The notes under the pieces: model-generated
The model's input: the letters and a program-made list of their open reading frames with translations, nothing else
Told to the model about the DNA's origin: nothing
Database searches by the model: none
Shown: positions 1 through 52,275 of the stretch, piece by piece
Position numbering within the stretch: the first letter of the stretch is position 1
How the letters are laid out: each line of letters starts with the position of its first letter
Source of the DNA: Verrucomicrobiaceae bacterium
GTDB lineage: Bacteria; Verrucomicrobiota; Verrucomicrobiia; Verrucomicrobiales; Verrucomicrobiaceae
Direction: 5' to 3'
DNA: 64,000 bases
Assembly (NCBI GenBank): GCA_019694165.1
Contig: JAIBCL010000021.1
Span: 1 to 64,000, forward strand
Made by a program: the position numbers and the translations under genes

Positions 1-3000
1 CACACCCGTGGACTGGTCAGCGGTGCGGCCGTTGTCTGTGCCGTTCGGACCGTCGGTGAAGGCGTTCTGGCCGACGAAGGAATTGCCGGCAAGCTCAATG
101 TTGACCCCCGTGCCGAGCGTGCGGAAGACCGTGCCGGTATTGCTGCTGGCCACATCATCCGTGCGGAGGAAGCCTTCGACCGATCCGCCGTTGAGCCGGA
201 CGGTGACGTTGGTGTTGGTGAGCTGGTCCGCATTGACCTGAAGCGTGCCACTGCCGAGGTCCAAGGTGGTGGCAGTGCCGTAGCTGCGCGCTCCGTCCAC
301 GCTCCAACGCTCAATGCCGCCGGCTGCGTAGGTCACCGCCTTGGTGAAGCCGGTGGTCAGGATGTCCACCACACCGTAACGGCGGGCGGTGATGCTGGTG
401 CCGGCATTGGCGAAGGCGTTGGCGTTGGTGACACCGATGGCGCCCTGTTCGACGTACACGTCTCCGGTGAAGGAGGTGCTGTTGTTGCCGCCGACGAAGG
501 CGTAACCATTGCCCCACTTGTAGAGGTCGTTGCTGCCGTTAAGACCGGTAAGCGTGAGACCCGTGCCGGTGGCACCGGAGGTGATCTGGTTGTTCACTGC
601 GGTGGCGTTGATGTCGAGGATCGAGTTGCCCGTACCGGTCAGGTAGAGCGTGCCGGCATTGAGCACCGAGCGGGTGCTGCCGAGCGTGACACGCAGACGA
701 GCCGGGGAGAGACCGGTGGTGTCTGTGGAATTGATTTCAAGATCGCCGATGCCGATGGCGGTGTCGGTGCCAGGCGTTGCGGAGATGATGGCGTTGTCCA
801 CTGCGACGATGCGGCCCATGGTGTATTGGCCGTTGAGCGAACTGCCGGGCGCCGCACCGAGCGTGAGCGTGGTTCCCGCCGCCGTGTTCTGGCTGCTGGA
901 GTTCAGGGTGATGGTGCCGGAGCCGGATGCGCCGAAGGTGTTCAGCGTGAGGCCACCTTCGTTAATGTTCCAGGCACCGGAGAAGCCCGTGCCATTGGCG
1001 GCGGCGGTCTGGTCTTTGCCCACAATAAGGGTGCCGGCACCGAACTTGGTGATGCTGCCGGCGTAGATGTCGCCGGAGAGGGTGGTGTTGCCGGTGTTGT
1101 AGATGATGCCTTCCTTGTCGCCGTTGGTGCCGAACTTGAGGTTGGTGGCGATGGTGGGCGTGCCGGTGGTGAGCAGGCCGCCGCGGTCAGCGTCGGAGGT
1201 ACCATTGGCGAAGGTGATGGTGTTATACTGGCCGGTGCCGCTGCTGATGTTCTGATTGGTGCGCAGTGCATAGACGGTCTGGTCTTGCGTGAGCACCATC
1301 GCGGCCGTGCTGATGTCCACCTTGCTGGTGCCGGTCGTGGTCGCCGTAAACGTGCCACCGGTGAAGGTGTTGTCATAGGCGGTGATGTTGGTGAAGCCGA
1401 AGGTGGCGTCGTACTTCATGAACGTGTTGTCCGTGCCGTTGATGTAGTAGGCGGGCAGCATACCGTAGGTGGCGCTGTTGGTCCCGCCGGTGACGGATCC
1501 CACCCCGCCGCTGGCAATGATGTTGGTCTTCGTGGCAGTGGACAGAGCCGCGTTGCCGAGCGTGCCGGCAGTGGCCAGGATCTTCATGGTGGCGGCACCC
1601 GTGCGGGTGACTGACGGCGTGGTCAGGCCAACCGAACCGCCGGTGCCAACAATCGAGGAGACGATCGCGCCTTTCTGGAAGGTGACGGCACCCACCGTTT
1701 CGACGTTGCCGACCGCCGGAGCACTCGTGGGCGAGGTGATCTGGAACTGGGCTCCATTGAGGTCGATGGCCACGTTGTCAGCCCAGCGGTTGTAGTTTGC
1801 CGTGCTGTTGTCGAAGCGCAGGACGGAACCCGGATGCAACACGACAGCGTTCTGGTTGGCGCTGTTATCGACCACTGCTTTCTGGAAGCTGCCGCTTGCG
1901 CCGCTGGCCGTCACCTGACCGAACACATCGGCGGTGCCGCCGCTGTCACCCAAGGGACCATTGGCTGCGGTGGAGACTGCCGTGAAGTTAAGCACGGAAC
2001 TGCGGCTGATGACGGTGCCGCCGTTGTAGGTGTGGACATCGTTGTTGGTTACCGTGCCGTTGCCGTTGGTTGCCTGGTTGCCGATCAAGACTCTCGTGGA
2101 TGACACGTCAGACAGCACGCCGGTGGCATTCGGCGAGTCAAGAGTCAGGGTGCTGCCGCCACCACCGATGCGATAGACATTGCCGCTGCCGACGGTCAGC
2201 GAGGTGGCAGCGTAGGTCGTGCCGGCGCTCGCACCGAGGAAGTAGGTGCCGTTGCCGATGGTGCCGAGGTCGATGGCGTTGGAGTAGCTGCCGGTGGCGT
2301 TCAGGGCAATGACGCCGCTGGAATCGGAGGACATCCAGTTGGCAAGGTTTGTGCCGGTGATCGTGTTTTCATTCACGCGGAAGCGCGAAAGCTGCGTGCC
2401 GGTGCTGTATTGGGCGATCTGGCCGTTGGCGAAGGTGAGTGTCGGAGCCCCGGCTGTCGCGCCGTTGCCGATGAGAATATCGCCCGTCGGGTTGACCCGG
2501 ATCTGGCTGCCGCGCAGCATGGTGTCGAGGTTCAGTGTCGGGATTTCCGAGTTCACGTCACCGAAGCGGAGCAGGCCGCCATTGACCACGAGGCCGATGC
2601 CGTTGGCGCCGACAGTGCCGGCATACAGGCCGCCGAAGGTGCTGGAGGTGCTGCTGAGCCACAGGTCGCCGCTGCCGCCCTTGATGATGGCCTGGCCGAC
2701 CGTGCCTGCCGTGCTGCCAGCGCCGTCGTTGACGGCACCGTTCAGAAGGAGCGTGCCGGTGACACTGAGGATCGGCGTGCCGGTCAGATTGGTGGCTCCG
2801 TTGATTTCCAGCACATAGTTGCCCGAGGAGCTGGCAAGCATCGAGCTGCCGATGGTGAGATCCTTGAAGGCGATGTGCTTGTTGGCAAAGGCACCGGAGT
2901 TGCGGTCGATGGTGAGGGTGGAGCCGCCGTTGACGATGAGGCTGTTGCCCGAGGTGTCGTTGCCGGCCCAGAAGCGCTGGCGGGTGCTGTCATTGGTGCC

Positions 3001-15000: not shown

Positions 15001-18000
15001 GACGCTCGTCGGAGTGGTGATGCTGGCGACGGTGGCAACGGTGGAACCGGTGAAGGTATTGGACAGCGGCGAGAGCGGCACGCCGGTGTAGAAGCCGATG
15101 ACCGGGTCGTAGTTCACGAAGTCGGCGGTCGCATTGGTCGAGGAGGCCAGTCGCAGGATGCTGGCCGCCACCACGCCGGAGTTGGCACCGACGTTGGTAT
15201 TGTTCAAGGTGTTGAGGCCGGCTGCGGTGGTGGTGGACTGGCCGAGGATGGTGCCGCCGAGCACGCGCGCGTCAGAGCCGGCGGTGTTGCCGAGGTTGCC
15301 GTCCACACCCGGAACGATGGCGAGCACGCCAGCGCCGGAGCGGGCGAGGGTGGTCGCGGTGATTTGGATGTCATTGGCATCCATCGCATCGAGGCGCATG
15401 TAGGAACCGCCGGCGAAGGTTACGGTCGGAATCGTGAAGGTGGCGTTCGGGCCGTTGGTGTTCACGCGCAGGGAGCCACCGTTAATGGTGACCGCGGTGT
15501 CGCCGAATGGAGTGCCAGCGGTGGCCTGCGTGAGGAGGGTGGCACCATTGCTGATGGCGGAGTTGTCGTGGAGGTTCAACCCAGTGACGTTGCCGTTGAG
15601 GATGACCGTGCCAGGTCCATTGACGGTGAGAACACCCGTGCTGTTCGCGGTGAGAGCATTGTTGGTGTAGGTCTGGCCGGCGGCGACGTAGATGCTGCCC
15701 GCCGCGCTCATGGTGATGACGCGGTTCGAAAGGATGGTGCTGTTCACCAGCAACTGACCGCCATTGAAGGTGAGCGGAGCGGGAGTGACATTCACGCCAC
15801 CGAGGCTGCCGAGATTCGCATCACTGGTGATGCTGAGCACACCGGCGGTGAGAGTAGTGGCACCGAGGTAGGTGTTTGTACCGCTGAGCACCAAGGTGCC
15901 GAGGCCGGTCTTGGTCAGGCCGGTCTGAGCGCCGACGTAGGTGAAGTCGCCGCTGATGATGCCGGAGGCAGTGAGGGTGGTGGTCGCGCCAACGTCAATC
16001 GTGCTGCTCTGGATGAGCTGCATGTTGTTCGCCACCGTGAAGTTGCTGTCCCAGCCGGCGAGCGTGCCGGAGTTCAGCAGGATATTGCCGGAGAGCACGC
16101 CGCCGACGCCTAGGGCGAGGGTGCCCTGGCTGATGACGGTGTTGGTGTAGCTGTTGCTGCCATTGGTGAGGCGAAGGATGCCCGCGCCGGACTTCACGAG
16201 GCTGGAAGCGCCGGTGACCGCACCGGAGAGGGTGACGATGCGCGTGGCATCAGCCACGTTGATGACGCGATAGGCGGCACCGCTCAAATTGACTGCACCA
16301 CTAAGGGTGAGGTCGATCTGGGTCTGCGCGCCTGCGCCGATAAAGGCGTCGGCCGCGAAGGCCCCGATGTTGTTGCCGGAACCGGCGAGTGCGCTGAGAA
16401 CGCCAGTGCCGGAGAAGTTGATGGCATTGCTGATGTTCATCGGCTGGAGCAGACCCACCGTGGTGGTGACGCCGAGGCCAGTCTGGTTCACTTCCAGAGT
16501 GCCGCTGTTGAAGGTGATGGCACCGGAACCGAGCGCACCGGCATTGCCCACGCGAAGAACGGCGCTGCCATTGATGGTGGTTCCACCGGAGTAGCTGTTC
16601 GGCGTGTTGAGGACGATGGTGCCGCCGTTTCCGATCAGATTGGCCCCCGGCGTTCCGGTAACCGCGCCGACAATGACTGAATTGCCCCCCGTCAGCACCG
16701 GTGCATTGATGTTCAGCAGGCCGCCGCCCGTGCCGAGGCGATAGGCACCGCCCGCGCCAGCACCGAGGGTAGTGGCGGTGTAGCTGGCGTTGTTTACCCC
16801 CGTGCCGGCTGTGGAGCCAAGGAAGACGCGATTGTTCGGGCCGAGTGCACCGAGGTTCACACCAGTACTGTAGCCGAGCACGTCGATTGCGAGAGTTCCA
16901 TCGACGGTGCCGCTCGTGGTGGCGAAGGCGACGCTGCCCGGCAACGCTCCATTGTAGCCAAGGCCGATGGCACCGATGCCATCATTGCTGGTGTTCACCG
17001 TGGTAGCAGTGCCACCGACATTGGCCGAACTGAGAACACGAAGGGCAGCGCCCGGATTTACAGTGATCGTACCGGCGGAAGTGAGCTGCTCATTGGCAGG
17101 CGTGGTGCTGCCGACGCGTGCTTCGAGAGCACCCTGATCGACGGTGATGTTGCCCGCATAGGCGGAGGCACCGCCGAGCACCAAGTTCGCAGTGCCCTGC
17201 TTGGTCACCGACGGGGCGGAGCCGCCGAAAGTGCCGAGCACGTTCAACTGGTTGGTGGTGAAGATCGTCGTCGCACCGGCACCGTTCATGGTCAAGCCGC
17301 CGAAGACGGTGTTCGTGTTGCCGCCCTGCACACCGAGAGCCGTGCTGGCCGCACCCATCGTGACAGCACCGACAGCCGTGCTGGCTGCGGTGGCGCTGAG
17401 GATGCCGGTGTTGGTCACGCTGACCGGGTTCTGGTAGAAGAGGTTGGTGGTGCCGACGTTGTAGGCGCCGCCCGCGAGGGTCACCGCGGGACCAGCAGTG
17501 TAGCCGGAGCCGCCAAGGCCGTATTGGGTGGTAGTGCTCAGGCCGCCGTCACTGACAGTGATGCTACCGGTAAGGTTTGGATTTGACGTGGCCGCGATGG
17601 CTAGGGTTCCCGGGCCGTTTTTGGCAAAGCCAGTGATCGATCCGCCGAAGGCTGCGCCGAGGGTGGAAACCAGGGCTGTGGTGCCCTGGAACGGATTCTC
17701 CACCGTGATGGTCGGAGTGGCAACCGATGCGGACACCACACCATTCAATGTCAGGTTCTGCTGCGTCACGCCGAAGATGAGGGTGTTCGACGGATTGGCA
17801 ATGGAGACCGGGTTGAGGATCGTGCGGGCTGCACCACCGGCGAGGAGGCGGGTGTTGTCCGCTGCGATGCTCAGAGTGCCGAGACCGAGCGGGCTGTTGG
17901 TGATGGTGCCGCCCACCGTGCTCGGCGTGCTGTCCGCGCCGATGATGATCGAGCCGCCGTTGAGAGTGACTCCCGTGGAACCGATGGCTCCGAAATTGCT

Positions 18001-21000
18001 GCTGCCGCTGAGCACCAGCGCTCCGGTGCCGGTTTTGTTGAGCACGTTTGCGGCACCCGCCCCGAGGATGTTGGCCGATACGATCAAACCATCAGCAGAG
18101 GCACCGGAGACATCGAAGTTGCGGGTGGCACCGTTGAGACTGAGGGCACCGGCGATGGTCGGCGTGGAACTCATATTGTCGTTCACCGAGGTAACGCCGT
18201 TGCCAAGCGTAAGCGCACCATATTGCAGGGTCACCGTGCCGCTGGCGGTGGCTGCCGAGGAGAGGGTAACCGTCGATGCCGTCAGGGACGAAATGGTTGT
18301 TCCAGGAGCGATGCCAACACCGGACACAGTCTGACCGGCGGCCAGCGTCGTGCCAGTCGTGGTCACGTTGACAGTCGTGCTGCCGCTTGTCGTGGTGGAA
18401 CTGACACCCAGGGCCGTGGTCACTGTCGGGGTGGAGTTAGTTCCACCCGTGTTGTTGAAGGTCAGCGCGCTGGCACCGCTGTAAGTGTTGTTGCCGACAT
18501 AGGTGAGCGAGCTGCCGCCATTGAGGACGATGTTGGCGCTGTTGTGGATCTCACCGGCTGCGGTGGCGGCCACCGTGGCGTTGTTGATGGTGAGAGTGCC
18601 ATTCGGGATGGCGACCGTGGCACCGCCATTCGCGCCGGCCGTGCTCAGGGTGAGCGTGCCCCCGTTGACATAGGTGCCGGTGGAATAGTTGTTGTTGCCG
18701 GTAAGAGTGAGGCCACCAGCGCCGCCCTTCACCAACGACGTGGCACCAGTGATAACGCTGGCGATGGTGGTGGTGTTGGCGTTGATGTAAGCATAGAGGC
18801 CGCTGGCACTTGAAGTCAGGCTGCCATTGTTGATGGCGAGGGTTTGGTTGGCCGCCATGAGCAGGCCGCCTGTGCCGATGGTGAGGGTGTTGCCAGCGCC
18901 TATGTCGATGGTGGCCGCAGCGCTGGGATTGACCTTCAAGGAGTTGATCGTCCTGGTGCCCACACCCGTGGTGCTGGCAGCAGTCACGAGGATGTTATCC
19001 GTGGCGGTGCCTGCCGTAAGAGCGGTGGCGGAATAGGAGCCGAAGGGTGTAGTATTGATTGGGTTGCCAAGCTGGCCGAGCGGACCAACGCCGCCAGAGG
19101 AACCGCTGGGAGCAGCATAGACCGCCCAATCGGTGCCGTTTACCGTGGCCCAGCCACCCATGATGCCGTTGACGCTTGGTGCCGCGCCACCGTTGACCGT
19201 GGTAAGGATGATCTGACTGTTGTTGGTGCCGCCGTAGCCGGGGTTGTTGCCGGTGAAGTTTACGTTGATTCCGGCATTGGTGACGAGGTTGCCGATGGTG
19301 AGCGTGCTGGGAAGCACCGTGCCAGTGGCCGGAGTAACCGTGATCGTGTTGTTACCTGGCTGGAGAGTAACCGTGCCGACAGAAGCGCTGCCCTGAACAC
19401 CGAGGTAGGTGAGTGTACCGCCCTGAAGCGTGATGCCGTTGGCGACGCGATTGGCGCCGATTTCAGTGGCGGTGTAGAGGCCCGTGTCATCAAGGGTGAG
19501 GCCGCCGAAGTAGTTGGTGACACTGCTGCTGGCGGAGAGGCGGCCCTGATCGCGCAGGGTCAGAGTGCCGCCGCGGATGATGGTTGCTCCCGTGTAAGGG
19601 TTGAGGTTGGTGAGGGTCGTGGTGTTGTTGCCCGAGCGGGTGAAGCCCATGGCCGCGACACCATCCTGGATCGTGCCGGAGAAGGATCCCCCGCCGGTGG
19701 ATGTCAGAACCGCCGCAGTGCCGCCGCTGTTGGTGATGATGCCGCCCGTGCCGGCCAGAGCGTTGACGCTGGTAAGAGCGCCGACAGCCTGGTTCTTGCC
19801 GGCCAGATCGAGCGTGCCGCCGTTAACCTGGACGGGATTTACCGTGGGCGTGGTGGCGGTCGGGAAGACGGCCAGCGTGTTGTCCGCCCCGCTGTTGAGT
19901 TTGAGAGTGCCGTCGTTGACCGTCGTGGCGTTGGTGGAAACGAAGAACTGCGGCTTGGTGAACTCCATGGCACCCGGACCGGCCTTCACGAAGCTGTTCG
20001 AGGACTGGTTGTAGGCGTTGAAGGTAAAGGTGTTGCCCGTGTCCATCTGATGGACATAGAGCTGGGCACCGTTGGGCGATGCGATCACACCGCCGTTTAC
20101 ATCGTTTGCCGCCGCAGCGTTGTTCACGAGGAAGGCGTTGGCATTCAACGTCAGCACCGCTGCATTGTTGATGGCGGCAAGCGAGGAGCCGGCGCTCATC
20201 GTCAAGGAGTTCACCGAGAGCGAGCCGAAGGTCTGAGCACTCGTGACGTTGATATTGGAACTTGTCGTCAAAGCGCGGAAGAGGCCGGGTGCCAATTCCG
20301 TGGTCGGGTCCAGCGGACGGATGCCGCCGACGGCCGAGTAGGTGGCAAAGCCGACCACACCCGAGGTGGTGTTCTGCGCGATGATGTCGTTGCGGATCGA
20401 CATCGTGTTGGAGCCGTTGCCGGTGCCGCCGCCCAGCGAGCCGGAGAAGTTTGGCACGTAGAGATTGGAGACTCCGTTGCCCGGCGTGTTGCCGAGGTTG
20501 GTGCCGCGGATGAGCGCGGAACCACCGGCGGCGATGGCACCGAGGTTGCCGACCGTCATGGACAGCGGCTGGGCGGCGTTGGCGGCAAGGGTGACGGTGC
20601 TGCCACCTGCGGCGATGTTGAGCGCACCGGTGTTGCCCAGATTGAGCGTCTCCGTGGTGGCGGCGCTGGCGTTGCCCAGAATCTGGAACTCGCCGCCGTT
20701 GAGCGTGAGGTTGCGGACCAAGGTGGCACCTACGCTGTAGTCCGTGCCGCCGAGACGGTTGTTGAGATTGGCTGTCGTGTTGTCGAGCGTCAGCGTGCCG
20801 CTGTCGGTCACGTTGTAAGTGGTGAACTTGGCGCTGCCAGAGGCACCGCTGAGGACCGACGTGCCCTGCGAGGTGGTGAAGGTGCCGATCCCCATGGAGC
20901 CTGCTCCCGAAGCGCCGTCGATGGTCATCGTGCCGGTGCCGATCTTGTCCAGATTGAACGAGGCGCTCGTCTGGTTGGCGGAACCAAAACGGCCGGAGTA

Positions 21001-24000
21001 GGTGAACGTGCCGTTGTCAAAACCGGTGCGCAAGGTGGCGGCGGTTCCAGAGTTGTTGGTGATCAATGCGGACGTTGAGCCGGACATCGAGCCGATGACG
21101 GTGGCGAGACCATTGATGTCAAGCGTGCCGCCAGTACCCAGGACGACACGCGAGTTGCGGGACAGGGCATTTGCTGTGCCGGGGCGGAGCGTGCCGTTGC
21201 TCACAGTAGTATCGCCTGTGTAATTGTTCGCCGGATTGCTGAGCGCGAGGACGCCAGCGCCCGTTTTGGTGAAGGGGAAGGCCGTGCCCGTGTAGGCTGC
21301 ACCAAGCGTGCCGACCACGACCGGGCTGTCCACCTGGATGGTCCGGGTGCCGCCTCCGAAAGTGACGACACCGTTCAAGTTCAGGTTGTTGCTGGTCACG
21401 CCGCCGATGACGAGGGTGTTCGGCGTGTTGCTCACGTTCACCGGATTGTAGATCGTGGTGCCCGTACCGATCAAGGTCGGCGCTGCGACACCCGAAAGGG
21501 TGATGGTGCCGGTACCAAGCGGGCTGGTGGTGATGATGCCAGTGGTGAGGCCCGCGCTGGCACCGACGATCAGGCTGCCGGCCTGCACATCAATGCCGCC
21601 GGTCCACAGTCCGATGCTGGCACCGCCAGTGACGGTCGGCGTGGCACCGGTGAGCGAGAGGCCGCCGGTTCCAGTCTTGACGATGGAACCGCTGGTGGTC
21701 GCGAGGATTTCCGCGGAAATGACGAGGTCATTCGGAGAGAGGCCGGACACGTTGATCGTCCGCACCCCATTGTTCAGGTCGATGGCACCGGAGATGGTCG
21801 GCGTGAGGGTAAGGCTGTCGTTGACCGAGGTTATCGGGTTGGCGTTGTTCAGGATCAACTGACCGCTGGCAGTGAGCGCCGTGCCCGTGGCGGCAAGGGT
21901 AGCGTTCTGAGACAAAGTGATCGTGTTCGACGTGGTGGAGACGATGCGAGTACCTGCCGGGATGTTGGCACCCGTGATCAACTGCCCTGCGACCAAGCCT
22001 GTGGTCGTGGTCACCGCCGTGATGACGTTGCTGCCAGCGGCAGTGGTGCCGGTGATGGCCGTGCCGCCAACGCTGTTGAAGGCCGTGGCCACAGTCGGAG
22101 CGGCCGTGCCACCGGTGTTGTTGAAGGCAAGCGTTCCGGTACGGGTGTTGTTCCCTACGAGGTTCAATGCCGCAGCACCGTTCATCACGATGTTGGCACT
22201 GTTGTGGATTTCATTGGCCAGCGTGGCGGTAACGGTGGCGTTGTTGATGGTCAGCGTGCCGTTGGGAACAGCCACTGTAGCACCGCCATCGGCGCTGGCA
22301 GTGCTCAGCGTGAGCGTGCCGGCATTGACGACCGTGCCACCCGTGTAGGTGTTGTTGCCCGTGACGGTGAGAGTGTTGCCGCCGGACTTGACCAAGGTCA
22401 CGGCACCGCCCGCGTTGTTGGCGATGACGCTGGCGATGGTGGCGGTGTTGTTGGCGTAAGCGAAGAGTTCAGCGCCCGCAACGGAGCCGGCGGTAATCGA
22501 ACCACCGGTGATGACACTGGCTGCACCGTTCAGCAGCAAGCCACCGCTGGTAAGAGTCAGCGTGCTGCCCGCAGCCTGAGTGACCGTGGCGGCGGCGCTA
22601 AGCCGCAGTGAGTTGATGGTCTGGGTGACCACGCCAGCCGTGGCCGAGCCGACGTTGGCTGCGATGGTGATGTTTTCGCCGTTGGCGGCTGGCGTACCGG
22701 TCGTAGCAAGAACATTGGCCGAGTAACCGGTAAAGTTGAGCGATCCCATGGCCCCGACGCCACCCTGGCCTTGGTTCGCAGCCGGCGTGAAATAGGTGGC
22801 CCAATCACTGCCGTTGACCGTGGCCCAACCGCCGATGATTCCGTTGCTGAGCGAAACCGCTGCCGTGTTGATCTGGTTGAGAATGACCTGGGAGTTTCCG
22901 GTGCCAGTCTGTCCGAGATTGGTGCCGGTGAAGTTGACCGTGGCACCGGTCTGCCGGACGAGGTTCGAGACCGTGAGGACAGCGGTTCCCGTGTTGCCCG
23001 CGGTGGAGGTGATGGTGCTGCTGCCGCCGGAGTTCGAACCGCCCACAAGCGTCACGGTGCCGACAGTCTCCGTGGAGGTGAGGCCGGGAGCACCAGTGAG
23101 CGTCAGGGTACCGCCGACAAGGTTGATACCCATGGCATCCGGCACGCGGTTGGTGAGGTTGCCTGTGGCGTTGTTGATGAGCTGGAGGTTGCTGTTGTCG
23201 ATGTTGAAGGTGCCGAAGTAGTTGTTCATCGTGGCCGTGGTGGCGAGGGTGCCGTTGTCGCGCAACTGAAGCGTGCCGCCGCGGATGTTCGTGCCTCCGG
23301 TGTAGGTCTGCGGGCTCACCAGCGTGGTCGTATTATTGCCCGAGCGCGTGAAGGTCAGGTTGCCGCCGATGACACCCGCAAAGGTGCCGCCGCCCGTCGA
23401 GGTGAACACGGCCGCACCAGTGCTGGTGACGGTCCCGCCCGAGCCTGGGTAGGCGTTGTTGTTGGTGAGGATGTTGACGGCCTGGTCACGACCGTTGAGA
23501 TTAATGATGCCGGTGTTGGCATTCAGGGAGATGGCAGCGGTCGCAGTAGACGTCGGTGAAACAGCCAGCGTGTTGGCGAAGGTGTTGCTCAAGTTGACGT
23601 TGCCGCCGTTGTTCGTCAGCGAACCAGTGAAGTACTGCGGTGCCGTGAAGCTCAGGTCGGCAATGCAAGCCTTGGTAATGCCGGCTCCGGAGATCATCGC
23701 GGAGATGGTCAGGTTGTCCACGGTGTGGATGAACAGCGAACTGGTGCCCGTAGCGATCTGGCCGCCGGTGATGCCCGCATTGCCGGTCAACGCAAGAATG
23801 CCGATCGAACTAGGACTGAAGATGCTGCCCGAAGTGGAGCCGGTAAGTCCGCCGCTGGAAGCCAAGGTGATCGTGGCGTCAGTCTGGGTCGTGAATATGT
23901 CGTTGCTCGTGAGGCGCAGGTTGGCCGATGTGGTGAACATGTTCGTCACACTGCCCAAAGTTTCATTTGCACCGAGCAAACGCAGGCCGGAGCCGGCGGT

Positions 24001-27000
24001 GTAGGTCAGGAAACCGGTGCCATTGCCAGCAAGGTTTGTGTCACCCACCATGTCTGGGCGCGTGCTGATGGTGGCAAGGCCGGCAACCGCATTGCCACCG
24101 CTGAGGCCCGGGGTGGTGATGAGGATGTTGGATACACCCGCTCCAGGAGTGGCACCGAGGTTGTCACCGCGAATGAGGTAGGTGGAGCCTGTGTTGAGGC
24201 CCTGCACGGAGTTGACATTGAGGATCGTGGAGCCAGCCGGGTTCGCATCAAGCGTGACGAAGCCTTCGCCGCTGCCGGCCGCAAGTGTGGCGATGGATTC
24301 GTAGGTTCCGCCGGCGGAGCCGATGATCTTGAACTCACCACCTGCAATGGTGAGGTTCTTCAGCAGGCCGCCGCCGCCGAGGCGGTTGTTCACGTTGGTT
24401 CCGGAGTTGTCGAGAAGCAGAGTGCCGGTCTGGTTCACGACCTGGGTGCCGAAGGCGGTCTGACCGGCACCCGAGTAGGTCACGGTTCCAGCATTTACCG
24501 TCAACGAGCCGGTGCTGGTGCTGCCCGCTCCGGTGAGAGTGAGAGTACCGGTGCCGACTTTGGCGATGTTGGTGTTGCCCAAAGTGGTGGCGCTGTAAGC
24601 ATTGAACTGACCGGAGAACGTGGTGTTCGCATTGTTCAATCCAACGGTAAGCGTGGTGGAGCCACCGTTGTTGGTGATGATGCCGCTGCCAGAGAGCTGG
24701 CTGATGGCTTCATTGGCACCGTTGAGATCAAGCACGGCGGGTGAGGCCATGGTGAAGGTCGAGAAGTCCGGGATCACGTTCGAGGTACCGAGGAAAATCG
24801 TGCCATTGGTCAAGGTCGTGGCACCGGCGTAGCTGTTGCCGGCCGACGAAAGTCGGAGGCCGCCCGTGCCGAGCTTGGTGATCCCGCTTGAGCCGGTGCC
24901 TTGAAGCGCCGAGGTAATGTCCAGGCTGATGGCTGCGAGGCCCGATGCGGTCACGGTGCGAACCGCACCGTTGAGATCGACGTAGCCGGTGTTCGGGTTG
25001 GCAACCGTGCCGGCGGCGGCGGTGGAGGAGATGGTCGGGATGGTGCTGTAGCTGTCGTTGGTGGCGATGATGTTTCCGCCGAGCTTCAAGATGCCGTTGC
25101 CCGTGCCGGTGGCGACCGAAGGGTTGGCGGTGCCGCCAGTATTGTTGAAGGTGAGCGTCCCCCCGAGGGTGTTGTTGCCCGTGTAGGTCAGAGTTGATGT
25201 ACCGTTGAGGGTGACGTTGGCCGACTGCGCAATCTGGCCGGAGTTGCCGGTCATGGTGACGGTCGAGCTGTTGATGGTGAGGTCACCCGGAACGACGGTC
25301 GAACCCGCCACGCCGTTGAGCGTGAGCGTCCCTTGATCCACCACAGTGCCACCAGTGTAAGTATTGGAGAGCACCGAGGAATAGGTTAGAGTGTTGGCAC
25401 CCGCACCGGTGACAGCCGGTGCGGAGAGTGTGATCGTGGTGCCGTTCGGGATGGCGGCGATCACTGTTCCGGCAGGGATGCCGGGGCCGCTCACGGTCTG
25501 TCCCACCGTAAGGTTGGTTGTGCTCGTCATGGTCACGGACGTCGATCCAGGCGTGGCCGTAGAGGAGAGTTGGAAATTGCCAGTAATCAACGGGACAGTG
25601 CCGGTACCAGTCGGTGCTTGGGATAGTGTCAGAGTGTTGCCGACGATGTTGGTGATGATGGTGCCGGCCGGGATGGCGTTGTTCGAGGTGTAGGTCTGGC
25701 CCGTCAGGGTCGCGGTGGCTGCCTGGCTGAGGGTGACGGTGTTGGTAGTGGCGTTGATGGCCGTGATGTTCGTGCCGTTGGGGATGCCCGTGCCGGTGAT
25801 CGGCATGCCAACAAGAAGGCCGGCAGTGCTGGTCAGCACGAGGCTCGTGCTCGCGGCGGTGGAACCTGTGGTTGCGCCACCGGTGGAGGTGACGGCCGCG
25901 CCCACCGAACTGATGGGCATTCCAATGGCAAGACCGTTCGCATTGGTCACGGTCACCTGTTTGTTCCCCATCGTGACGTTGGTGCCGGAAACAGCGACGG
26001 GCACTGGCGTAAAGGTCAGGTTGACCGTACCGGCAGCGGTGGCATTGGCGCTGAGCGTGAAGGTCGTCGGGCCGGCGATCGTGGCGATGGTCGCACCGTC
26101 AGGAATGCCAGTGCCGAAGACTCTCATGCCGACGGCCAGACCCACGGTATTGGCAACCGTGACGGTGGCGTTGGCATTGACGGTGGTGCTGTTGAGCACG
26201 GCCTGAGGCGTAAGCGTCAGGGTGCTGCCACCAGACTTGACCAGCGTGACGGCACCCGTGCCGTTGTTGACCACGGGCGAGTTGAACGTAGCCGTGTTGT
26301 TGGTGTAGGCGTAGAGGTTGGCAGCCGTGTTGGCAGTGGCACCAGCGGAGAGCTGGCCGGCCGCGAAGACACTGGCAGCGCCGTTCATCAGGAGGCCGCC
26401 CGAGCCAAGTGTCAAGGTGCTGTCGAGAGTGTTCTGCGTGATGGTGGCCGCCGCGCTCAAGCGCAGCGAGTTCACCGTGCGGGAGGTGACGCCGGTCACG
26501 CTGGCTGCGGTGGTGATGTTGTCGGTGGCGGTGCCCGCAGTGAGTGCATTGGTCGAATAGGCACCGAAGGGCGTGGTGCCGATGAGCGTGGAGCCAAGCG
26601 CACCCACACCAATCGCTCCAGTAGTGGCGTCAGCCGAGGAGCGGTAGCTGGCAAAGTCGGCACCGTTCACTATGGCCCAGCCGCCGAGGATGCCGTTGGT
26701 CAGCGTCGGTGTGGCACCGCTGACCTGGGTGAGGATGATGCGGCTGTTGTTGTTGTCGAACTGAGCACCCTGGCCGAGCACGCCAGAACCAGCGGTGAAG
26801 TTGACGGTGGAGATGGAGTCGCGAGTCAGGTTGCCGATCGTGAGGCCAGCGGAGCCGCCCGTGCCGCGCGTGGCGGTGATGGTGCTGGCACCGTTCTGGA
26901 GGCCGACGGATGCCACGCTTTGAGTAGAATCGAGACCATTGTAGCCCAAGTAAGCCAGCGTACCGCCCTGGAGGGTGATCGCGGCGGAGGCGTTGACGCG

Positions 27001-30000
27001 GCTGATGTCGTTGAGCGGGTTGCCCTGGTTGTCGAGGTTGAGGGTGCCGTAGTAGTTGTTGATTGCCGAGGTATTGGAAAGCTGGCCGTTGTTCTGGAGG
27101 GTGAGCACCCCGCCACGAATCGTGGTTTCCCCGCTGTAGGTGTTGTTGGAGAAGAGCGTCGTCGTGTTGCTGCCGCTACGGGTGAATGCGAGCGAACCAT
27201 TCATCGTACCGGTGAAGGTGCCGCCGCCCGTGCTGGTAAGCGTGGCCGCCGTGCTGCTGGTGATGGAGCCGCCGCCGTTGGGCACTGCGGTATTTCCATT
27301 GCTGAGGGCCGCTACGACCTGGCTGTTGCCGTTGAGGTCGAGGATGCCGCCGTTGACGTTAAGCGCGTTGCCCGTGCCGACGCCCGATACGAACAGGGTG
27401 TTGGTCCCACCGGCAAGCTGGACCGTGCCACGGTTGATGTTCGTGGTGCCAGTGTAAAGCTGGCGGGTCTGGAGCACCAATGAGCCGTCGCCGTCCTTTG
27501 TGATGCCGCCGGTGCCGGTGATGGCACTGTTGATGTTGAGGTTGGTCGAAGCTCCAGGAGTCCAGATGAACATCGAGCCGCCAGGGCCCGCGAGCTGACC
27601 GCCGCTGATGCCGGTGTTGCCCGCGTTGGCGAGGATGCCGCCGCTGGTGACAGTGAGGACGCCCGAGGCAGGCAACTGGCCGCCACCCACGATGCCCGTT
27701 CCGGAGTTGAGCACGAGGCTGTTGACGGTGACGTTGCCACCGCTGATGAAGTTGGCCCCATAGGTGCGGGTGTTGAGGGTGACGTTGTTCGTGGCACCAG
27801 AGCTAAGGAAGGGCGACAGCGCCATTTCCGCCGCCGTCAGGCCGCGGAAGCCGACGCCGGTTGAAGACGTGTCACTGCCGGTCGTATTGGCACCCGTGGC
27901 ACCGACGTAGGTGGCGAAGGACGTGCCAGTGCCGGTCGCGGAAGAGTCGATGAGGATGTCGGGACGGATGGACATGGTGCCCGTGCCGATCGCACCCGCG
28001 CCGCCGATGCCCGTCGGCTGCGCAGTCAAGGCGACGAACTGGGCGACACCCGGACCCGCCTTAAGCGTGCCGAGGTTGGTGCCGCGCAAAAGGAGCGAGG
28101 CGCCGGCGGTGACGTTGGAGACCGCGCCGGTGTTGAAGGTCAGGGGCTGCGCCGTATTTGGCGTGAGGGTCATGGTGCTGCCACCGACGCCGAGAGTGAA
28201 CTGTCCGGCTGAAGCGGCGGTGACCGTCAGACGGTTGTTCGGGTTGGTGGTGGGATTGGTGGTGACTGTGGCTGCGGCGCTGAGCACAAACGTCGTGGCG
28301 TTGGTGATCGATGCAATGGTAGTGCCGGTCGGGATGCCAATGCCGGTAACCACCATGCCAGGGATCAGGCCGGCCGTGCTGTTGACAGTGACCGTGGTGC
28401 TGCCGCTGGTGGCGATGCCGTTGCTCATGGTGACGACGTTGCCCAGCGTTTCCGTCGTGCTGGCACCCGCGTTGCCGAGCAGGTTTACCGTGCCGCCGGC
28501 CAGGGTCATCGTAGCGCCCTGTGCGGCACCAACAAGACGACCGCCGCCGAGGCGGTTGTTCACGTTGGTGGCAGTGTTGTCGAGCGTGAGGGTGCCGGTG
28601 GCATTCACAGTGTTGCCGAGGAAGCTGGTCGCGGCATTGCCGTTGTAGAGCGTAGTACCCTGGCTGGTGGTGAAGGTGCCGAAGGCAGTGCTCGTGTTGC
28701 TGGTGAGGTTCAGCGTGCCGGTGCCCACCTTGTTGACGTTAAGGGTGTTTGTCGAGCCGTCGCTGAAACGCGTAAAGGCACCGGAGAAAGTGGTGCTGGT
28801 GTTGTCCCAGCCCGTCACCAGCGTACCGGCGGTGGCGGAGGAGTTCGTCACGGTGCCGGAGCCTGCGAGGCTGCCGATGTGGATTGTGTTGCCACCGTTG
28901 AGGTTGAGCGTGCCGGAGCCGCCCACCGTGACTGCGGAGCGTGGCATGCCCGCACCGTTGGCACCAAACTGGAGCGTGCCGGCGTTGATGGTGGTGGCTC
29001 CATTGAAGCTGTTGACGGCGCTCAATTGCAGGACGCCGGTTCCTTCCTTGATGATGCCGACGCCCGAGCCGCGGATGGAAGCGGTGACGTTGAGAGCGGC
29101 CTGAAGGTTGGCCACATCCTGACCGTTCACGGTGATCGGATTGGCAGTGAACGTGCGGTTCGCCGCGCCGAGGTTGACGCCGCCGGCGAGGGTGGAGGTG
29201 GTGCTGACATTTGAGGAATCCGCAGTCACATTGCCTGTCAGCGTAAGCAGGCCGCCGTTGGAGCCACCAGTGTTCAGGGTCGGGGCATTGCCACCGTTGT
29301 TATTGAAGGCGAGGCCCGCGAGGGTGTTGTTGCCCAGGAGGTTCAGAGTACCGCCACCGTTGATGACCGGAGCATTGGAGGAGTCGATCTGACCGGCGAT
29401 GTTGTTCATCGTCACAGTGCCGCCGCTGATGGTAAGGCCGCCGGCCGGGATGACCGTCGTGGCGCTTGTCGCGCTCAGATTCAGGGTGCCCTGGTCCACC
29501 GTCGTGCCGCCGGTGTAGGTGTTGCTGAGACCAATCTGCAGTGTCGTGATGGCCGAGGTGGTTGGCGCAGAGAGCGTGATGGTGTTGCCGCTGACGTTGG
29601 TGACCGTGGTTCCGGCCTGGATGCCGACGCCGCCGACCTTGTCGCCGATGCTTACGCCGGTGGCGTTCGGTACCACGACCGTGCTGGAACCGGATGTGTT
29701 GGTGGCACCTGTAAGGGTCCACGACGGCTGCAGGGCAAGGGTACCCGCACCCGACTTCACGAGTGAAACAACGCCGCTGCCATTGTTGGCGATCACTGAG
29801 TTGATCGTCATCGTGTTCTGGGCGTTGTAGGCAACAAGTTCCGTGGTTCCCGATCCCGTACCGGCGGTCAAGACGCCCGGATACAGACCGAGACCAGCAA
29901 CACCGATGGTGGAGGGATTGGCGTTGTTGCTGCGGAGCAGGCCGCCTTGGTCGAGCACCAAGGTGTTGCCAGCGGTGGTGAAGCCGATGTCAACGGTGGC

Positions 30001-33000
30001 ACCGCCGGAAAGACGGAGGTAGCCGGTGGTTGTGGTCGGGTCAGCAAGATTGGTGGTGGTGGTAACCTGCGTGACGTTGCCCGAGGCAAAGGTGCCGTCA
30101 TAGACTCGGTAGCCGGTCGTGCCGAGGGCACCCACGCCAAACGACGTGGTGTAACCTGCATAGTCGTTGCTGTTCACGATGGCCCAGGCGGGCATGACAT
30201 TGTTGGTAATCGACGGAGCCGAGGAGAACAGGATGCGGCCGCCATTGCCCATCTGGCCGAGTGCGTTGAAGTTCACCGTCGTGCCATTGTTGGCGGCGCG
30301 CGTAAGGCTGAGGAAGGTGAGATCGGCCGAGTTGATGCCGGTGCCGCCGGTGGTGGCCGTAAGCGTGTTCGCACCCTGGGCCAAGGTCAGAGCGCCAAGC
30401 GTCTCAGATGAAGCGGCCTGCGCACGGCCTTGGAGGGCGATCGTGGCACCCCGCACGGTGATCGGAGCGCTGTTGCTGAAGCGGTCGGCGATGTCGAGCA
30501 AGGCCGTGTTGGTGAGATTCAGGGTGGCATAGTTGATGTCCACCGTGGACGATCCGGTGAGGCCGGTGAGCGCACCGGAATCTTGGAGCGTGAGGGCACC
30601 GTTGTTGATCAGCAGATTGCCAGTGAACAACGGGCTGCTGTTGGTCAGCGTCAGCGTGCCGGTGCCGGACTTGTTGTAGGTGAAGGCACCTTCGAGCGTG
30701 CCGGCGAAGGTGCGGGTGTCGGAGTTGCTCACCAGAGTACCGGCAGAAGAAGTGCCAAGCACGCGGCCACCAGCCCCGGCGATGGTGGAATCGGACAGCA
30801 GACCGCTGATGTACTGAGATTTGCCGTTGAGATCCAAGGTGCCGCCATTGAGCACCACAAACTGATTTGGCAACACCGTGTTGCGCGCAGCGCCCAGTTG
30901 AAGGGTACCCTGATTGATGACGAGGTTGCCGGTGTAAATATTTTGCGCGTTAAGCAGCAAGGTGCCCGCCCCGGATTTCGTGAGGCCGCCTGATCCGGTG
31001 ATCACGCTTCCGATGGTGGTGCTGTCGAGGGCATGGATGATGCCTTCGTTACCGGCAAAGGCCAGAATACCGCCGTTTATGCCTGTGTTGCCCGTGCGGC
31101 CAATGATGCCGCCGGACTGGTTGGTGAAGGTGAGGAGCGTGCCGATGCTGATGCCCGCCGCGCTGTTGAGGTCCATCGAGTTGACCGTGCCCACGCGGGT
31201 GAGCGTGGTGGTACCGGTGGTGAAGACGATGTTGTTGTTCACCGGCAGGCCGGTTCCGGTGAGGGTGAAGTCCACCGCGCCGCCAGTGATGGTCTGAGTT
31301 TCAGCGCCGCTCAGCGCGCGGATCAGGGTGGTGTTGCCGGTGTTGGCCGTCGCAAAACCGGTGCCCGCACCGCCAGGCGTTGTCGTGTTGACCAAGGCGT
31401 AGGGCAGGATGCCTTTGTTGGCCGAGCCGTTGGCACCGGTCTGGCCGGTAAAGGTTGGGCCGGTGGTGACGGTGATGTCACCGACACTGTTCGCAAGAGT
31501 ACTGCCAAGGCTGTTGCCCGAGAATGTCACCACACCGCCAGCATTGCGGGCGAGGCTGGCAATGGTCAGGTTGGTACCGCCCGTGGCAGCGCCGGTCACC
31601 GCGACCTGATCGAAGCCGCGGCCAATGGTGAGCGCGCCGAGCGACTGCGTCGTGGCGGCGGCATTCGGCGTGATGGTCAGGCTGCCGCCTGTCAGAGTGA
31701 TCGGACGTGCACCGAGCTTGTCGGCGGTGCTCGAGGTATAGTCGAGATTCAGCGTGGCACCGGTCAACACGGTGGCACCGATGGTCGGCGCGCCCGTGAT
31801 GGCACCAGAGCCGTTGATGCTCAAAGTGCCCTGGTTGATGGCGAGGGCACCGGTGAGAACCACGCTGTTGGCCGTCGTGACATTCAAGGTGCCGGCACCG
31901 AACTTGTTGAAGTTGACGTACTGATTCGACGTCGGGGTGGTGGAGGATGTCAGGTTTCCGGCGAGGTTGATCGTGGCTCCCGAAGCCGGGTTGAACGTGA
32001 CGGAGCGGGCCGTGGTGGTCGTGTTGCTGATGCCTCCGTTGATGTTGAGTATCCCGGCGTCGGCACCGATGACGGCATCGAAGGGCATGAGCAGCGCGCT
32101 GGAAACCGTGTTCGTGCCCGACACGTTCTGCAACTGACCACCAAAATTGAGGCCGCCGTTTGCCTGATTGCCCGTGCCCTGGAGGGTGATGGAATTGGAT
32201 ACCGTGATGCCGCCCGAAAGCTGGAGGGCGGCGCCAACAGCCGTGGAACTCGGCGCGATGAAGATCGGGGCACCACCGGCGGCACTGTTGGTTGAGAGGC
32301 GGACCGCGCCGGCATTGATGTAAATCCCGCCCACCCACGAGGAAGGATTGGCCACGTTGATGTTGAGGATGCCGTTGTCGTTCTTCACGAGCGCATTGCC
32401 CACCCCCGTGTTCGTAAACGGCGAACTAAGCGTCAGGACGTTGGGGGAACTGATGTTCGTGGCGGTGACTTCGATGGCGTTGTAGGGCTGCGCCAGATTG
32501 ATTGTGCGGGATTCGGTGAAGGTGCCGGTGGCTCGGAAACCGTTGCCAGTGACCGAAGCTGTGGCGAGGGTCGTGTTCGGGACGTTGAGCTTGATCACGT
32601 TGGTGGGGTCCCCAAGTGGAGCAGTGCTTCCCACCGAAACGGCACCCGCCTGGATGTCGATGATGTTGCTGGAACCACCGAAGGAGTTGGATGCCCCGCT
32701 GAGTACGACGGTGCCGGAGCCAGTCTTGACGAAGTTGTTGGCACCGGAGATGAGGCCGCTGAGTTCGAGACCCTGCACCACGTTGGAGTTGGTGACGTTG
32801 GCGACGTTGAAGGCGTTGGAAGCGGCAAGCGCGATGTTGTCGGTGAGCTTCAGTCCGTAGCCGCTGTTATTGGTGACGGTGACGCCATTTACGTAGCTGG
32901 CAGTGAGCGCTGTGGGCGTGATCGTCTTGTTGGCCGCAAGGATGGTGGGATAGGTCGCGGCCAGGCGATCCACCGTGAGCGAAGGCACGCCGGAGACGGT

Positions 33001-36000
33001 GAGCGGCACGGTGTAATTCAGCGCCTGAGTGTTGCCAAGATTGTCGCCGTCCATCAGGAGACCGAGACTGCCGCCGGCAGTGGAGATGGTGCCAAGCGTG
33101 CCGGTCGCGTTGGTGAGGGCAAGGACGCCCTGGTTGATGCTGATCGCACCCGTCGCGGCCGAAACATCACCCGAGAGCACCAGGAGGCCTGGTCCGTCCT
33201 TCGTGATCTTGCTGGCCGCAGTGGTGAGGTTGCTCGAGATGGTGACACCCTGGGTGGCGGTATTCATCTGGTGGAAGATATACTCGCTGTTGGTGCCGGT
33301 CGTGATGCCACTGCCGAATCCGCCGACGGTGATAGGCTGCGGCGTGGTGGATCCAAGGAAGAGGAAGGCACCGCTGTTTACGTTCAAGGAGTCCGATGCG
33401 CCGGAGCCATTGAAGGTGAGGCCCGCACTTGCGAGGGTGGAAGTGTTTTCAAGCAAGAGGGCATTCACCTGATGGCTGGTGCCGGTCAGGGTGAGATTGG
33501 AGGTGCCGGAATAGCGCGCATTGTTGAGCAACGTGGTGGCACCGCCGGCGACGATCTGCTCGTACTCCGAGGAAGTCAGTGCCCGGAAGCCGTTGCCGAG
33601 ACCGCCGAAGGTGCTGTAGGTCACGAAGGCATTGCCCATCGAGCCGGTGGCGGTGGCATTGACGCCGGCATTGCTGCCGACGGCCCATGGCAGGATGCTG
33701 ATGTTGGTGGACACGCCGGTCGTGGTGCCGCCACCACCAACCAACGCACCGACGACATTGGTGGGATTGGCCATGTAAATGTCACCGCGGCGGTTGGCGA
33801 TCGGGTCTTCCATGCTGGTTCCGAGGACGAAGAGGGTGGAATTGTTGGTGCGGACCAAATCGGAGAGTGTCAATCGGGCGGTTACGTCGGTCCCGGTAGC
33901 GTTGACACGGATGGTGTTGGCACCGCCGCCGAGGGTGACCGCGCCCACGGTTTCATTGCGGGGCGTGAGGGTGCTGATCTGGTCGCTGGTGTAGTTGAGG
34001 CCGACGGTGGCGACTGCCGCGTTCGGCGCGGTGTTGGTCAGGGTGATGGCCGAGGCGTCGTTGAGGCGGTTGGTGTCGGTGACGTTGCCTGTGGCGTCGA
34101 TGTTGAGGCCGCCGCCGTTGAGGATAGAGACAGCGCCGACATTGGCGAAATTGGAGGAAATTACGCCGGTGGAAAGCGCACCGTTGGCCAGCGCGAGCTG
34201 TGCGCCGTTAACCGTCAGGGTGCCGGTGTAGGGATTGTTGGCGGTGTTGAGGGTGAGCGTGTTGGCAACCGCCGTGCCGGTGACTGTGAGCGAGCCGCTG
34301 CCGGTGATTTGACCGGAGTAAGCCGTGTTGCCGAGCTGGTTGATGGTGAGATTGCCCGTACCGATCGCAACCGTGCCACCCACCGCGATGCTGCCGGTGA
34401 CCACACCAGCCGTGACCGTGCTTCCCATCAAGCCGCCGCCGGCAAGGCTGCCGATTGTTTCGGTGGTGCCGTTGAGGTCGAGCACGGCGGTGGTGGAGTT
34501 GGCCAGCGTGACTGGAGAGAAGTTCGGGAGGGCATTACCGCCCGAGAGCTTGAGGGTGCCATCGTTGATGCTCGTCGCACCGGTGTAGAGATTGCTGCCA
34601 GAGAGCAGAAGGGTGCCGGTTCCTGCCTTGGTAAGAGCGAGCGCACCGTTGTTCGGCGGCTGGTTGATGATGGAGGAGCCAATGGTGAAGTCTGCTCCAG
34701 TGTTATACTGGTGGACCATCAATTCATTGCCCGTGGAGGAAAGGTAGCCACCGGTTATGGATGCGGCATTGGCTCCGACGTTTGAGGTGACCAGCACGCC
34801 GCCGCCGCTGATGTTGAGGTAAGCTGCGGAATTGATCGCCGCAGTGGAAGCGGCAGCGGCATTGAAGCGGAGGGAGCTGATGCCCGTGGTGGAGTTGTAG
34901 GTGCCTGCAAAGCCAGCGGAGTCGGTGATGTTGGCGTTGGTCCAGGTTGCCGGGTTGTCGTTCGACGTGGTGGTCACGGCAATGACGTTGTTCGAGCCGT
35001 CCTTGGTGGCGAAGTTGGTCGTGCTGCCGATGGTCACCGTGGCCCAGTTTCCAAGCGTGGTGGCCGCGCCGATGTTGATGTTGTTGGTGCCGGTGGAGGC
35101 GCGCAGGAAATTGATGGTTGACTGAGTATTGCGGGTGATCTGGCTGGCGGTGGTGCTGTTGCCCATGTTGACCGTGAGATTGGCACTGCCAGTGGTATTC
35201 ACCGCGAGGCGGGAGTCTGTGTTGGAGTTCAAGGTGGTGGACGTGTAGGCCTGCGTGGCGGTGGTGGCGTCCGACTTGTTGAAGTTCAAGATGGCCGATC
35301 CGAGCGTCAGAGTGCCGGCACCGAGCTGCCCCGCCGTGGCACCCGTGTTATTGGCATTAAGCGTGCCCCCCGTGACGGCAACGTTGCCGGTGAAGGTGTT
35401 CACCGCCGTCGCGGAGGTGGTGAGGGTGCCGGAGCCGATCTTGGTGAGTGAGCCAGCATTACCCAAGTTTTGAATGATGCCAGCGATGCTGGTATTGCCC
35501 GTGCCGCCAATGGTGACCGTGCGGCTCTGGCCAGATTCGCTAAGTGAGAAGGTGTCAGCAGCGGCGTCACCGATGGTCAGTGTTCCGCCATTGTTGATCA
35601 ACGTGTTGCTACCGCCCGTGTTGACGAAGTTGCCATTGAATACAAGCGTGCCCGGCCCCTGGATGAGACCACCGCCGGCACCGAGGGTGATGCCCTGCGC
35701 AAAGGTGTAGGTGCCGCTGTTGGCCGCCTGGAAGTAGCCGCCGACGAAAGAAAGGGTGTTGGTGTTGGCTCCTAGAGGTGTGGCCGCTGCTGTATAGGGG
35801 CCGACGGTCGCGTCAATCTGGAGCACGCCGGATGTTACGTTCGTATTGCCGGTGTAGGTATTAGCCGTGCCGCCGATTCGGAGCAGGCCGGCGGGGCTGT
35901 TTAGGCCGGTGTTGGCAGACATGGCCGCACTCAACGTGCCCGCGCCAGCGCCACCGTTCCCAATAACGCCGTTGATGATGGTGGTCCCCGTGCCGCCCAT

Positions 36001-39000
36001 TGTATAGGTACGCGCACTGCCATCAGCCAAACCAACGTTTGCCAGCGTCAGCGTCGCTCCGCCGGTAAGGAAGTTTGACAGGACGCTGTTGCCCGCGCTG
36101 TTGTTATTAACCGCTCCGTTGATGACGAAACTGTTGCTTCCGGTAAACTGAAAGTTTGTGTTCGCCACCGTGATGAAGTTCACGGACGCTGGCAAGGTCC
36201 GGGTTCCGCCAATCGCCTGCATGGAGGCATTGCTGATCGTCACATTGCCTGCGGACACATTGCCCAGCGCATTGTCATTGCCGATTCCGAGCACACCGGT
36301 GTTGATCGTGGTTCCTCCTGTGTAGGTGTTGTTGCCGGTGAGAACCCAGGTGCCGGCGTCGCTCTTGGTGACAGCGGTGGCGGTGGTGCCGTTCTGGATG
36401 ACGGAGGATACAATGTTCATGTCCTCGTTGGAGCCACGAAGCTGGAGGGTCTTCGTTGCTGTCGTTTGGGTGAAGGTCAGGTCCGTGATGGTCAGCGGCC
36501 CGCTGCCATCATTGGAAATGGTCGATGTGCCTCCAGTGCCGGCGATTTCAATGCGGCGCGTGACATTTTCGCCGCCGCCGACATAGACAAAGTTGGGGTT
36601 GTTGGCAGCCCCGCCGATCACGAGGCGATTCGTTGCATCGGCAACACCTGTGAGGGCACCCAGGGGACCGCTTGCACCGAGATTGCTCACGATCAGCGTG
36701 CCGTTGTTGACGACCACGCCGCCCGTGCCGGCCGTGCCATTGCCGCCACCTGTGAAGGTGTTGTTGCCGGTAAGCACCAGAACGCCGCCGCCAGTCTTGG
36801 TCAGGGCTGCCGTGCCTACGGCGGCTGTACCTGAAAGCACGCCGGAGACGGTCGAATAGTCCGTGTTGGTGGTGCCGTTGTCATCCACCTGGATCGTACG
36901 CGTGGTGGTGAAGCCGGTGCCGAGGTCAATGGCGTTGACCAGTTGCGTCTCAGCCAGAGATGTGGTCGAACCGAGGATGAGTGTACCGGTGCCGTTGCCA
37001 ATGCCGCCTGTGCCCCAGGTCAGCGAGGGGCCGTCGTTGACGCCGATGGTGGTGCCGCCGAGATCGACGGTGAGTTTGGCTGTAGAAGCAGCGAAACCGC
37101 CGTTGGCATTGGCCGCCGACCACTGCACCTGTCCAGCCGCCGTGCCGATGGCACGTTGGAACTCACCGGCGGTTTCGAGGACGCCGCCGTTGAGGCTGAG
37201 GTTGCTGCTGGCCGGGAGGCTGGTGCCGTCCGTCGCACGCAGGGCACCGCCGGTGATGGTCGTGGGCCCGACGTAGCTGTTGGCGGTGTTGCTCAGGATC
37301 CAGAGGCCGGCGTCTGCCTTGGTGATGCCGAGCTGATAAGTGGCGCCGGCGGAGTCGTCGAGTTTGATGCCCATTTCGTTGTCGCCCGTCGAGTTGCCAC
37401 CAAGGGTGAGCGTGCGTGCTCCGGATGCTCCTGAGAAGCCGACAGTGCCGGTGGAGTTGAAGATGAGCGCCGCGTTGTTCTGCGCACCAGCAGCAAGGAC
37501 GTTGTTGCCGAACTGGCCGGACGACTGAATCGTGCCGTTGCCAGCAAGAGTGAACAGACGGTTGGTGGTGACGGAAGGCGTCTGCGTCGTCTGGAAAATA
37601 CTGGCGTTGGAGCCGGTGTACTGAAGAATACCGCCGTTGAAAACAAGGCTGCCGGCATTGTCACCGGTGTCACCCGCACCAATGCCGCTGGCAGAACCGA
37701 TGTCAGCAAGAGATGTCACGGCGACCGTGCCACCATTAATGGTCATCGGACCCGTGAAGGTGTTGGCGCTGGAGATCGAGAGCGTTCCGGTACTTGTCTT
37801 GGTAAGGCCGAGTTTGCCCTGGCCTGGGGTGGTGAAGTTGGCGTCAGTGATCAGGCCGGAGGACAAGCCGCTGGTGGCGTTGTTCCCCACCGTCAAGGTG
37901 GCGGTGCCTGCCGAAGTCGAGGCGTTGGTCACGGTCCCTGCGTTGTTCAGGGCGCCGACGGTATTGGAACTGACACCGTTGAGGTCCAGGGTGCCGTCCT
38001 GGCGAATCGTCAGGCCCTGATTGATCGCACTGAGCACCCCAGTGCCCGAGAGTTGCAGCTTGCCCTCGTTGATGGTGGTGGTCCCGGTCTGCGCATTGGA
38101 GGCATTGCTGAGGATCAATGTGCCGGCACCGTTCTTGGTGAGGCCGCCGGTCGTGGTGCTGAGAATGGGGGCCGAGAGAAGCAGAGAGCTGCCCGTATCC
38201 ACACGCACTGCAAGATCACCAGCCGAATTGGTGGTCACCCCGCCGCCGCTGGTGGCGATCTCGCCATTGCCGCCGGTCTGGAGGATGCCGCCGCCAGTGG
38301 CACCACCCACGGTCAAATTGCCGCTCATCGTGAGGGTTTGGGCACCCGAAATGCGCAAGGAGTTCACCGCCACAGCGGCATTGCTGAAGCTGCCCGTAAT
38401 CTGGTTGTGAGCAGCAGCGGTAAGGGCGGAGGCGCTGGTAACACCTTCAGCGCCACCGCCGTAGGTGGGAGCGCGCCAGAAGAAGTTGCCCACTCCCCCG
38501 GTCGTGTCATTGAAGGCAAAATTCGAGCTGTCGAAATAGGCGTGGGAATTGACGAAACCAGAAGCCAGGCCCGTGACGTTGAGCTTGAAGTTTGTGCCGT
38601 TGGTTCCCGGACCGCTGTTGGTGTAGTTGAGGGACGTGCCCAAGGACGGAGCCACCAACGAACTGAAGGTCAACTGGGCATTGCCGGTATCACCGGTGCC
38701 ACGGGTGATCTTGATGGTGCCGGCCCCGGCGGTGGTCGTCAGCGCGCCGAGCGCCTCCGTGCTGCCCGTGCTGAACGCACGATACTCAAGAGTGCCGCCC
38801 GCCTGCTGATTGCCCATGAGGGAGTTGGCGTTGAAGACCACGGCACCCGTAGCATTCACAATGTCCGTGGTCGCACCCGGTGAGAGGAGTTTCAAAGTAC
38901 CGCCCGCCACCGTCGTCGTGCCGGTGTAGGTGTTGGCCCCGGAGAGCACCCAGGTGCCACTGCCGTTCTTTTGAATCGAAGTAGCCCCGGTGTTGTTGGC

Positions 39001-43523: not shown

Positions 43524-43669
43524 CGGCCCCACCCACCAAAGGCGGACACATTTCGTCCCTTTAAGTCTTGCAGTGGCTCGGAAGCAGGCCTCACGAGGTC
43601 ACTTGTTGCCGGCACATGTGAAGCTCACGGTCCAGAGGAGGAGTGCTCCGCGCTTCGGCAAGTACTCAG

Positions 43670-43734
43670 CAGTAAATTTAATATAAATTATCTTTTTTAT
43701 TGTAAATAATATATTTTGTCATAGTTTCCACATC
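43670..43734 (+). promoter_or_regulatory. AT-rich promoter region of the pilus-like operon
   Basis: About 65 bp of almost pure A/T directly precede the first pilin-like gene, in sharp contrast to the GC-rich surroundings. Several -10-like hexamers (TATAAA near 43682, TATATT near 43711) and -35-like TTGTAA (43700) occur, but no single pair is clearly best. This is the only obvious promoter-like tract before the ten plus-strand genes at 43735-53508, so it probably drives the operon. Confidence 0.5.
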
Positions 43735-45348: not shown

Positions 45349-45372
45349 TCCACACCCAAATACTCCCCCGAT

Positions 45373-47293: not shown

Positions 47294-47319
47294 AACCCTC
47301 TCCGCAACACCTCGCCACC

Positions 47320-47871: not shown

Positions 47872-47918
47872 ACCGCCCCGGAACCACAGCCAACCAAACC
47901 TTCAATCCGTCAACCACC

Positions 47919-48485: not shown

Positions 48486-48522
48486 TGCCCTGCCAATCCG
48501 CCATCCCCAAGCGACACACGCC

Positions 48523-49266: not shown

Positions 49267-49270
49267 GGTC

Positions 49271-50236: not shown

Positions 50237-50239
50237 TCC

Positions 50240-52260: not shown

Positions 52261-52275
52261 CCCCCCTCGACCGCC

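Follow-up and report, generated by a model that had tools for sequence, protein, structure and literature searches.

A 14,158-residue PATR-repeat protein with a PEP-CTERM end, encoded by one uninterrupted gene in a Verrucomicrobiaceae bacterium

One uninterrupted gene occupies the first 41 kb of the window analysed here, a 64,000-nucleotide stretch of contig JAIBCL010000021.1 from a Verrucomicrobiaceae bacterium (GCA_019694165.1), and continues onto a second contig of the same assembly. Joining the two parts gives a complete product of 14,158 residues, with a calculated mass of 1.39 MDa. It belongs to a family of comparably large proteins found in related bacteria, and larger bacterial proteins have already been published. 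We consider it probable that the gene encodes a single secreted surface protein, mostly a beta-helical fibre, that is processed by an exosortase and placed at the cell surface or in the extracellular matrix.

An earlier note on this DNA had proposed a single gene of more than 41 kb, open in one phase from the ATG at 41061 to the left window edge and encoding at least 13,687 residues. Translation of the minus strand bears this out, with 13,687 codons and no stop (Table 1). The remaining frames of the same interval are interrupted by 176 and 426 stops on the minus strand and by 49, 277 and 1046 on the plus strand. The G+C content of each codon position holds steady from end to end (0.48–0.55, 0.52–0.59 and 0.74–0.85 for the first, second and third positions, respectively). 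The stop-free frame, the stops in all other frames and the steady, third-position-rich composition together indicate that the interval is coding throughout.

The left window edge coincides with the end of its contig (C25) in a 7.8 Mb genome of 66 contigs. A continuation was sought among the contig ends carrying PATR sequence, and one alone overlapped the window, the right end of contig C26, by exactly 127 bases that are present only at these two positions in the genome. An exact overlap of this length is expected from a short-read graph assembler using that word size. The ends of C4, C50, C51, C57 and C12, which have open PATR frames or PATR genes nearby, did not overlap the end of the window and were rejected. 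The C-terminal 471 residues are encoded on C26, so that the C-terminal end indeed lies beyond the window, as the earlier note had it, and leftward extension reached the stop codon.

Many PATR genes reside in this genome and the assembly break falls inside the giant gene, so the repeats of several genes could in principle have been fused into one artificial long frame. This explanation appears very improbable to us. In the assembled sequence of the giant gene and of eight paralogue regions from this genome, exact repeats inside the gene did not exceed 29 bases, and no word longer than 26 bases was shared with a paralogue; repeats this far below the 127-base word size should neither collapse nor swap. 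Moreover, collinear homologues lie on single contigs in separately binned genomes, and the alignments of two of them (G035 and G078) run unbroken across the join between C25 and C26.

Table 1. Features of the giant gene in the window (positions 1 to 64,000).
Feature	Positions	Strand	Basis	Relatives
Giant gene, residues 1–13,687 of 14,158	1..41061	-	Stop-free frame; rest on C26, stop at C26:104311	
Exact match of 127 bases to the right end of C26, onto which the gene extends	1..127	-	Exact overlap, present nowhere else in the genome	
N-terminal signal-like segment with a basic start and the hydrophobic stretch TAVLIACFAIWSVEI, followed by RGA	40921..41061	-	Translation inspected by eye	
Module A, residues 1–2,625	33187..41061	-	Collinear blastp chains, PATR matches	8,045-aa protein of G013; C12 of the same genome
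Module B, residues 2,626–7,875	17437..33186	-	Starts and ends of collinear chains in several homologues	5,681-aa protein of G031; 8,905-aa protein of the Pirellula MAG
Module C, residues 7,876–13,687 (to 14,158 on C26)	1..17436	-	Collinear chains	6,900-aa protein on C47 of the same genome; 10,060-aa protein of G003; 7,846-aa protein of the Pirellula MAG

Collinear homologues on single contigs measured 14,657 (G079), 14,376 (G035), 11,959 (G078), 11,601 (G027) and 11,546 (G059) residues. These five homologues, from one other genus, each matched the protein in 80–93 collinear 250-residue windows at 56–59% mean identity, and all end in PEP-CTERM. The giants of Prosthecobacter and other Verrucomicrobiaceae (e.g. 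G035 and G079) are collinear with the present protein over residues 251–14,158, at 56–58% mean identity, and carry the same kind of tail, whereas the first 250 residues and the gene neighbourhood differ; no gene flanking the window or C26 portion matched those beside the other-genus giants at E 1e-15. Between the window gene and that of G035, differences per codon position were 0.29/0.24/0.51; changes thus fall mostly at third positions, as expected for a protein under selection. A contig search with the N-terminal 1,600 residues found nothing, and a C-terminal profile found eight named relatives. A search against plasmids returned no match. A further relative of 10,060 residues, also with a PEP-CTERM end, occurs in a single-contig genome (G003). 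The length had been described as exceptional, and this holds among bacteria at large but not within the group, where relatives have frames of 14,657, 14,376 and 14,256 residues. Another family of the same class has a PATR frame that runs off its contig end after no fewer than 17,232 residues (G183:C2:1-51696; L103–L105).

The earlier note had read everything decoded as PATR sequence preceded by a signal peptide. A signal-like N-terminus is present, and PATR units (TIGR02601 / PF12951) score above cut-off in most segments of the protein; the recognised units, however, cover only ∼8% of it (NCBIfam recognises 35 within the window and 2 beyond it, ∼31 residues each), so the earlier reading goes too far. 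No other Pfam or NCBIfam domain exceeded its cut-off in the window part; a weak match to FlgD_tudor fell below its cut-off and was set aside. Like other proteins with this 'autotransporter-associated beta strand repeat', the giant protein has units above the curated cut-offs, but it greatly exceeds the length of most such frames in the phylum sample.

Because the chains of several homologues start or end near residues 2,626 and 7,876, three modules were marked (Table 1). From these alignments the giant protein appears to consist of three large modules that are also found apart in relatives of 6,000–10,000 residues. The same genome holds further PATR frames of 5,976, 6,359 and 6,900 residues, the first two being PATR/PEP-CTERM frames arranged head to tail (G000:C51:562-37618). 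Consecutive giant PATR/PEP-CTERM frames of 12,608, 8,905 and 7,846 residues were also observed in a MAG named Pirellula (PB1.007; L111, G273:C11:19487-108900). The last of these, at 7,846 residues, shares 61% identity with the window protein across 1,600 residues, whereas the best NuoD of this MAG matches the window's at only 48% identity, compared with 82–84% for the family. This difference suggests either that transfer took place between phyla or that the contig was binned wrongly. A possible, though tentative, extension is that the gene arose by fusion of three already giant fibre genes that were passed between Verrucomicrobiota and Planctomycetota, and that its product is a single-chain, barrel-free beta-helical fibre of ∼300 nm handled by an exosortase.

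Sequence searches of solved structures gave no match (the best hit, at E 0.36, was an unrelated enzyme). A model of residues 13,188–13,687, built from an alignment of eight sequences and covering 3.5% of the protein, reached a pLDDT of 70. Foldseek alone returned no match to it under E 0.001; when its top chains were re-aligned with VIA-align, the model matched TibA (Z 13.8, rmsd 4.2, 260 residues aligned), UpaB (Z 13.7, rmsd 5.7, 326 aligned) and Ag43b (Z 12.2, rmsd 5.9, 290 aligned), all of them beta-helical passengers. This model of middling confidence thus suggests a beta-helix for the segment, and the remainder of the protein may likewise have the shape of a beta-helical fibre. A model of part of module B (residues 5,780–6,300) had a pLDDT of 59 and was discarded as too poor.

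The joined frame ends in VVVPEPSRLMLVFFGIFGLFFRRRRNGSL, a PEP-CTERM signal made up of PEPSR, a hydrophobic stretch and RRRR, which scores 24.4 bits against TIGR02595 (cut-off 16) and 27.8 bits in the genome search, where 32 PEP-CTERM matches were found in all. Two exosortases are encoded in the genome (C6:218053 and C57:413290), both above the PF09721 cut-off and the former also above that of TIGR02602. PEP-CTERM was defined from Verrucomicrobium spinosum, in which it occurs in 65 copies, and was linked to exopolysaccharide (Haft 2006, PMC1569441); mass spectrometry detected 9 of the 23 PEP-CTERM proteins of Akkermansia (PMC4960237). The present protein resembles these exosortase substrates in its TIGR02595 C-terminus and in the presence of exosortases in the genome, and differs from them in size. 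PATR repeats characteristically occur in autotransporter passengers (PMC9977779), which the modelled fold also resembles. The earlier note had named an autotransporter barrel, along with PEP-CTERM and an LPXTG-like anchor, among the features to look for. The PEP-CTERM signal proved to be the actual C-terminus, as it is in the homologues, and no PF03797 barrel was found there or anywhere in the genome at E 0.001, while two control genomes gave matches. We regard a classical type V autotransporter with a barrel beyond the window as highly unlikely.

Under the preferred reading of a secreted, exosortase-processed fibre, a Sec signal peptide would direct the giant protein across the inner membrane, and the body, composed of PATR and PATR-like units, would fold for the most part as a beta-helix and form a very long fibre; the gene would have been built up in evolution from the three large modules. 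One of the two exosortases would then recognise and cut the PEP-CTERM signal, and the cut protein would be handed to the cell surface or the exopolysaccharide matrix, for release or display. A beta-helix has about 20–25 residues and rises 0.48 nm per rung, from which a helix roughly 300 nm long would follow, suited to attachment or matrix building. The surface location that the earlier note had given the product is supported as probable, and an adhesive or structural role may be proposed by analogy with its family and fold. Upstream of the giant gene, on the plus strand at 41931–53508, lies a set of genes resembling those for a type IV pilus or type II secretion, comprising B12-type radical SAM, choice-of-anchor K/prepilin-like, PilT-family ATPase and GspF-like genes; a tRNA-Leu gene follows at 53848–53930 on the minus strand.

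Giant surface proteins of PVC bacteria have also been assigned a part in predation or polymer degradation, as proposed for Omnitrophota (PMC10066038, PMC12057145), and the beta-helix fold is found in polysaccharide lyases as well; on this view the protein would be a weapon at the cell surface that carries enzymes, and not a fibre with a structural or adhesive role. We find this unlikely here, since Pfam and NCBIfam searches of the window part detected no catalytic domain, nor did NCBIfam in the C-terminal part, and carbohydrate-active domains were likewise missing from the Pfam and NCBIfam matches of the window part. Proteins of more than 5,000 residues are frequent in PVC bacteria (PMC11573180). 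The Omnitrophota giants include a Velamenicoccus protein of 39,678 residues (PMC10066038) and others of up to 85,800 residues, the latter figure as cited in PMC12057145. The present protein shares with them a single giant surface-type frame in a bacterium of the PVC superphylum; it is, however, smaller and PATR-based, and they are described with many transmembrane helices or with carbohydrate-active and adhesion domains, none of which were found here. A limited literature search found no paper on giant PATR/PEP-CTERM proteins of Verrucomicrobiota.

The sequence evidence shows that surface proteins of 14,000 residues in this family come from genuine, conserved genes whose start and anchor are defined, and not from assembly artefacts. 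Their modular kinship to proteins of 6,000–10,000 residues suggests a way in which genes of this size expand. Two questions can now be put to the test: by what path a beta-rich chain of 1.4 MDa passes both membranes when no barrel is fused to it, and whether an exosortase handles such cargo. If the gene did arise by fusion and its product is exported without a barrel, the family would exemplify a separate route by which megadalton fibres are exported and assembled.
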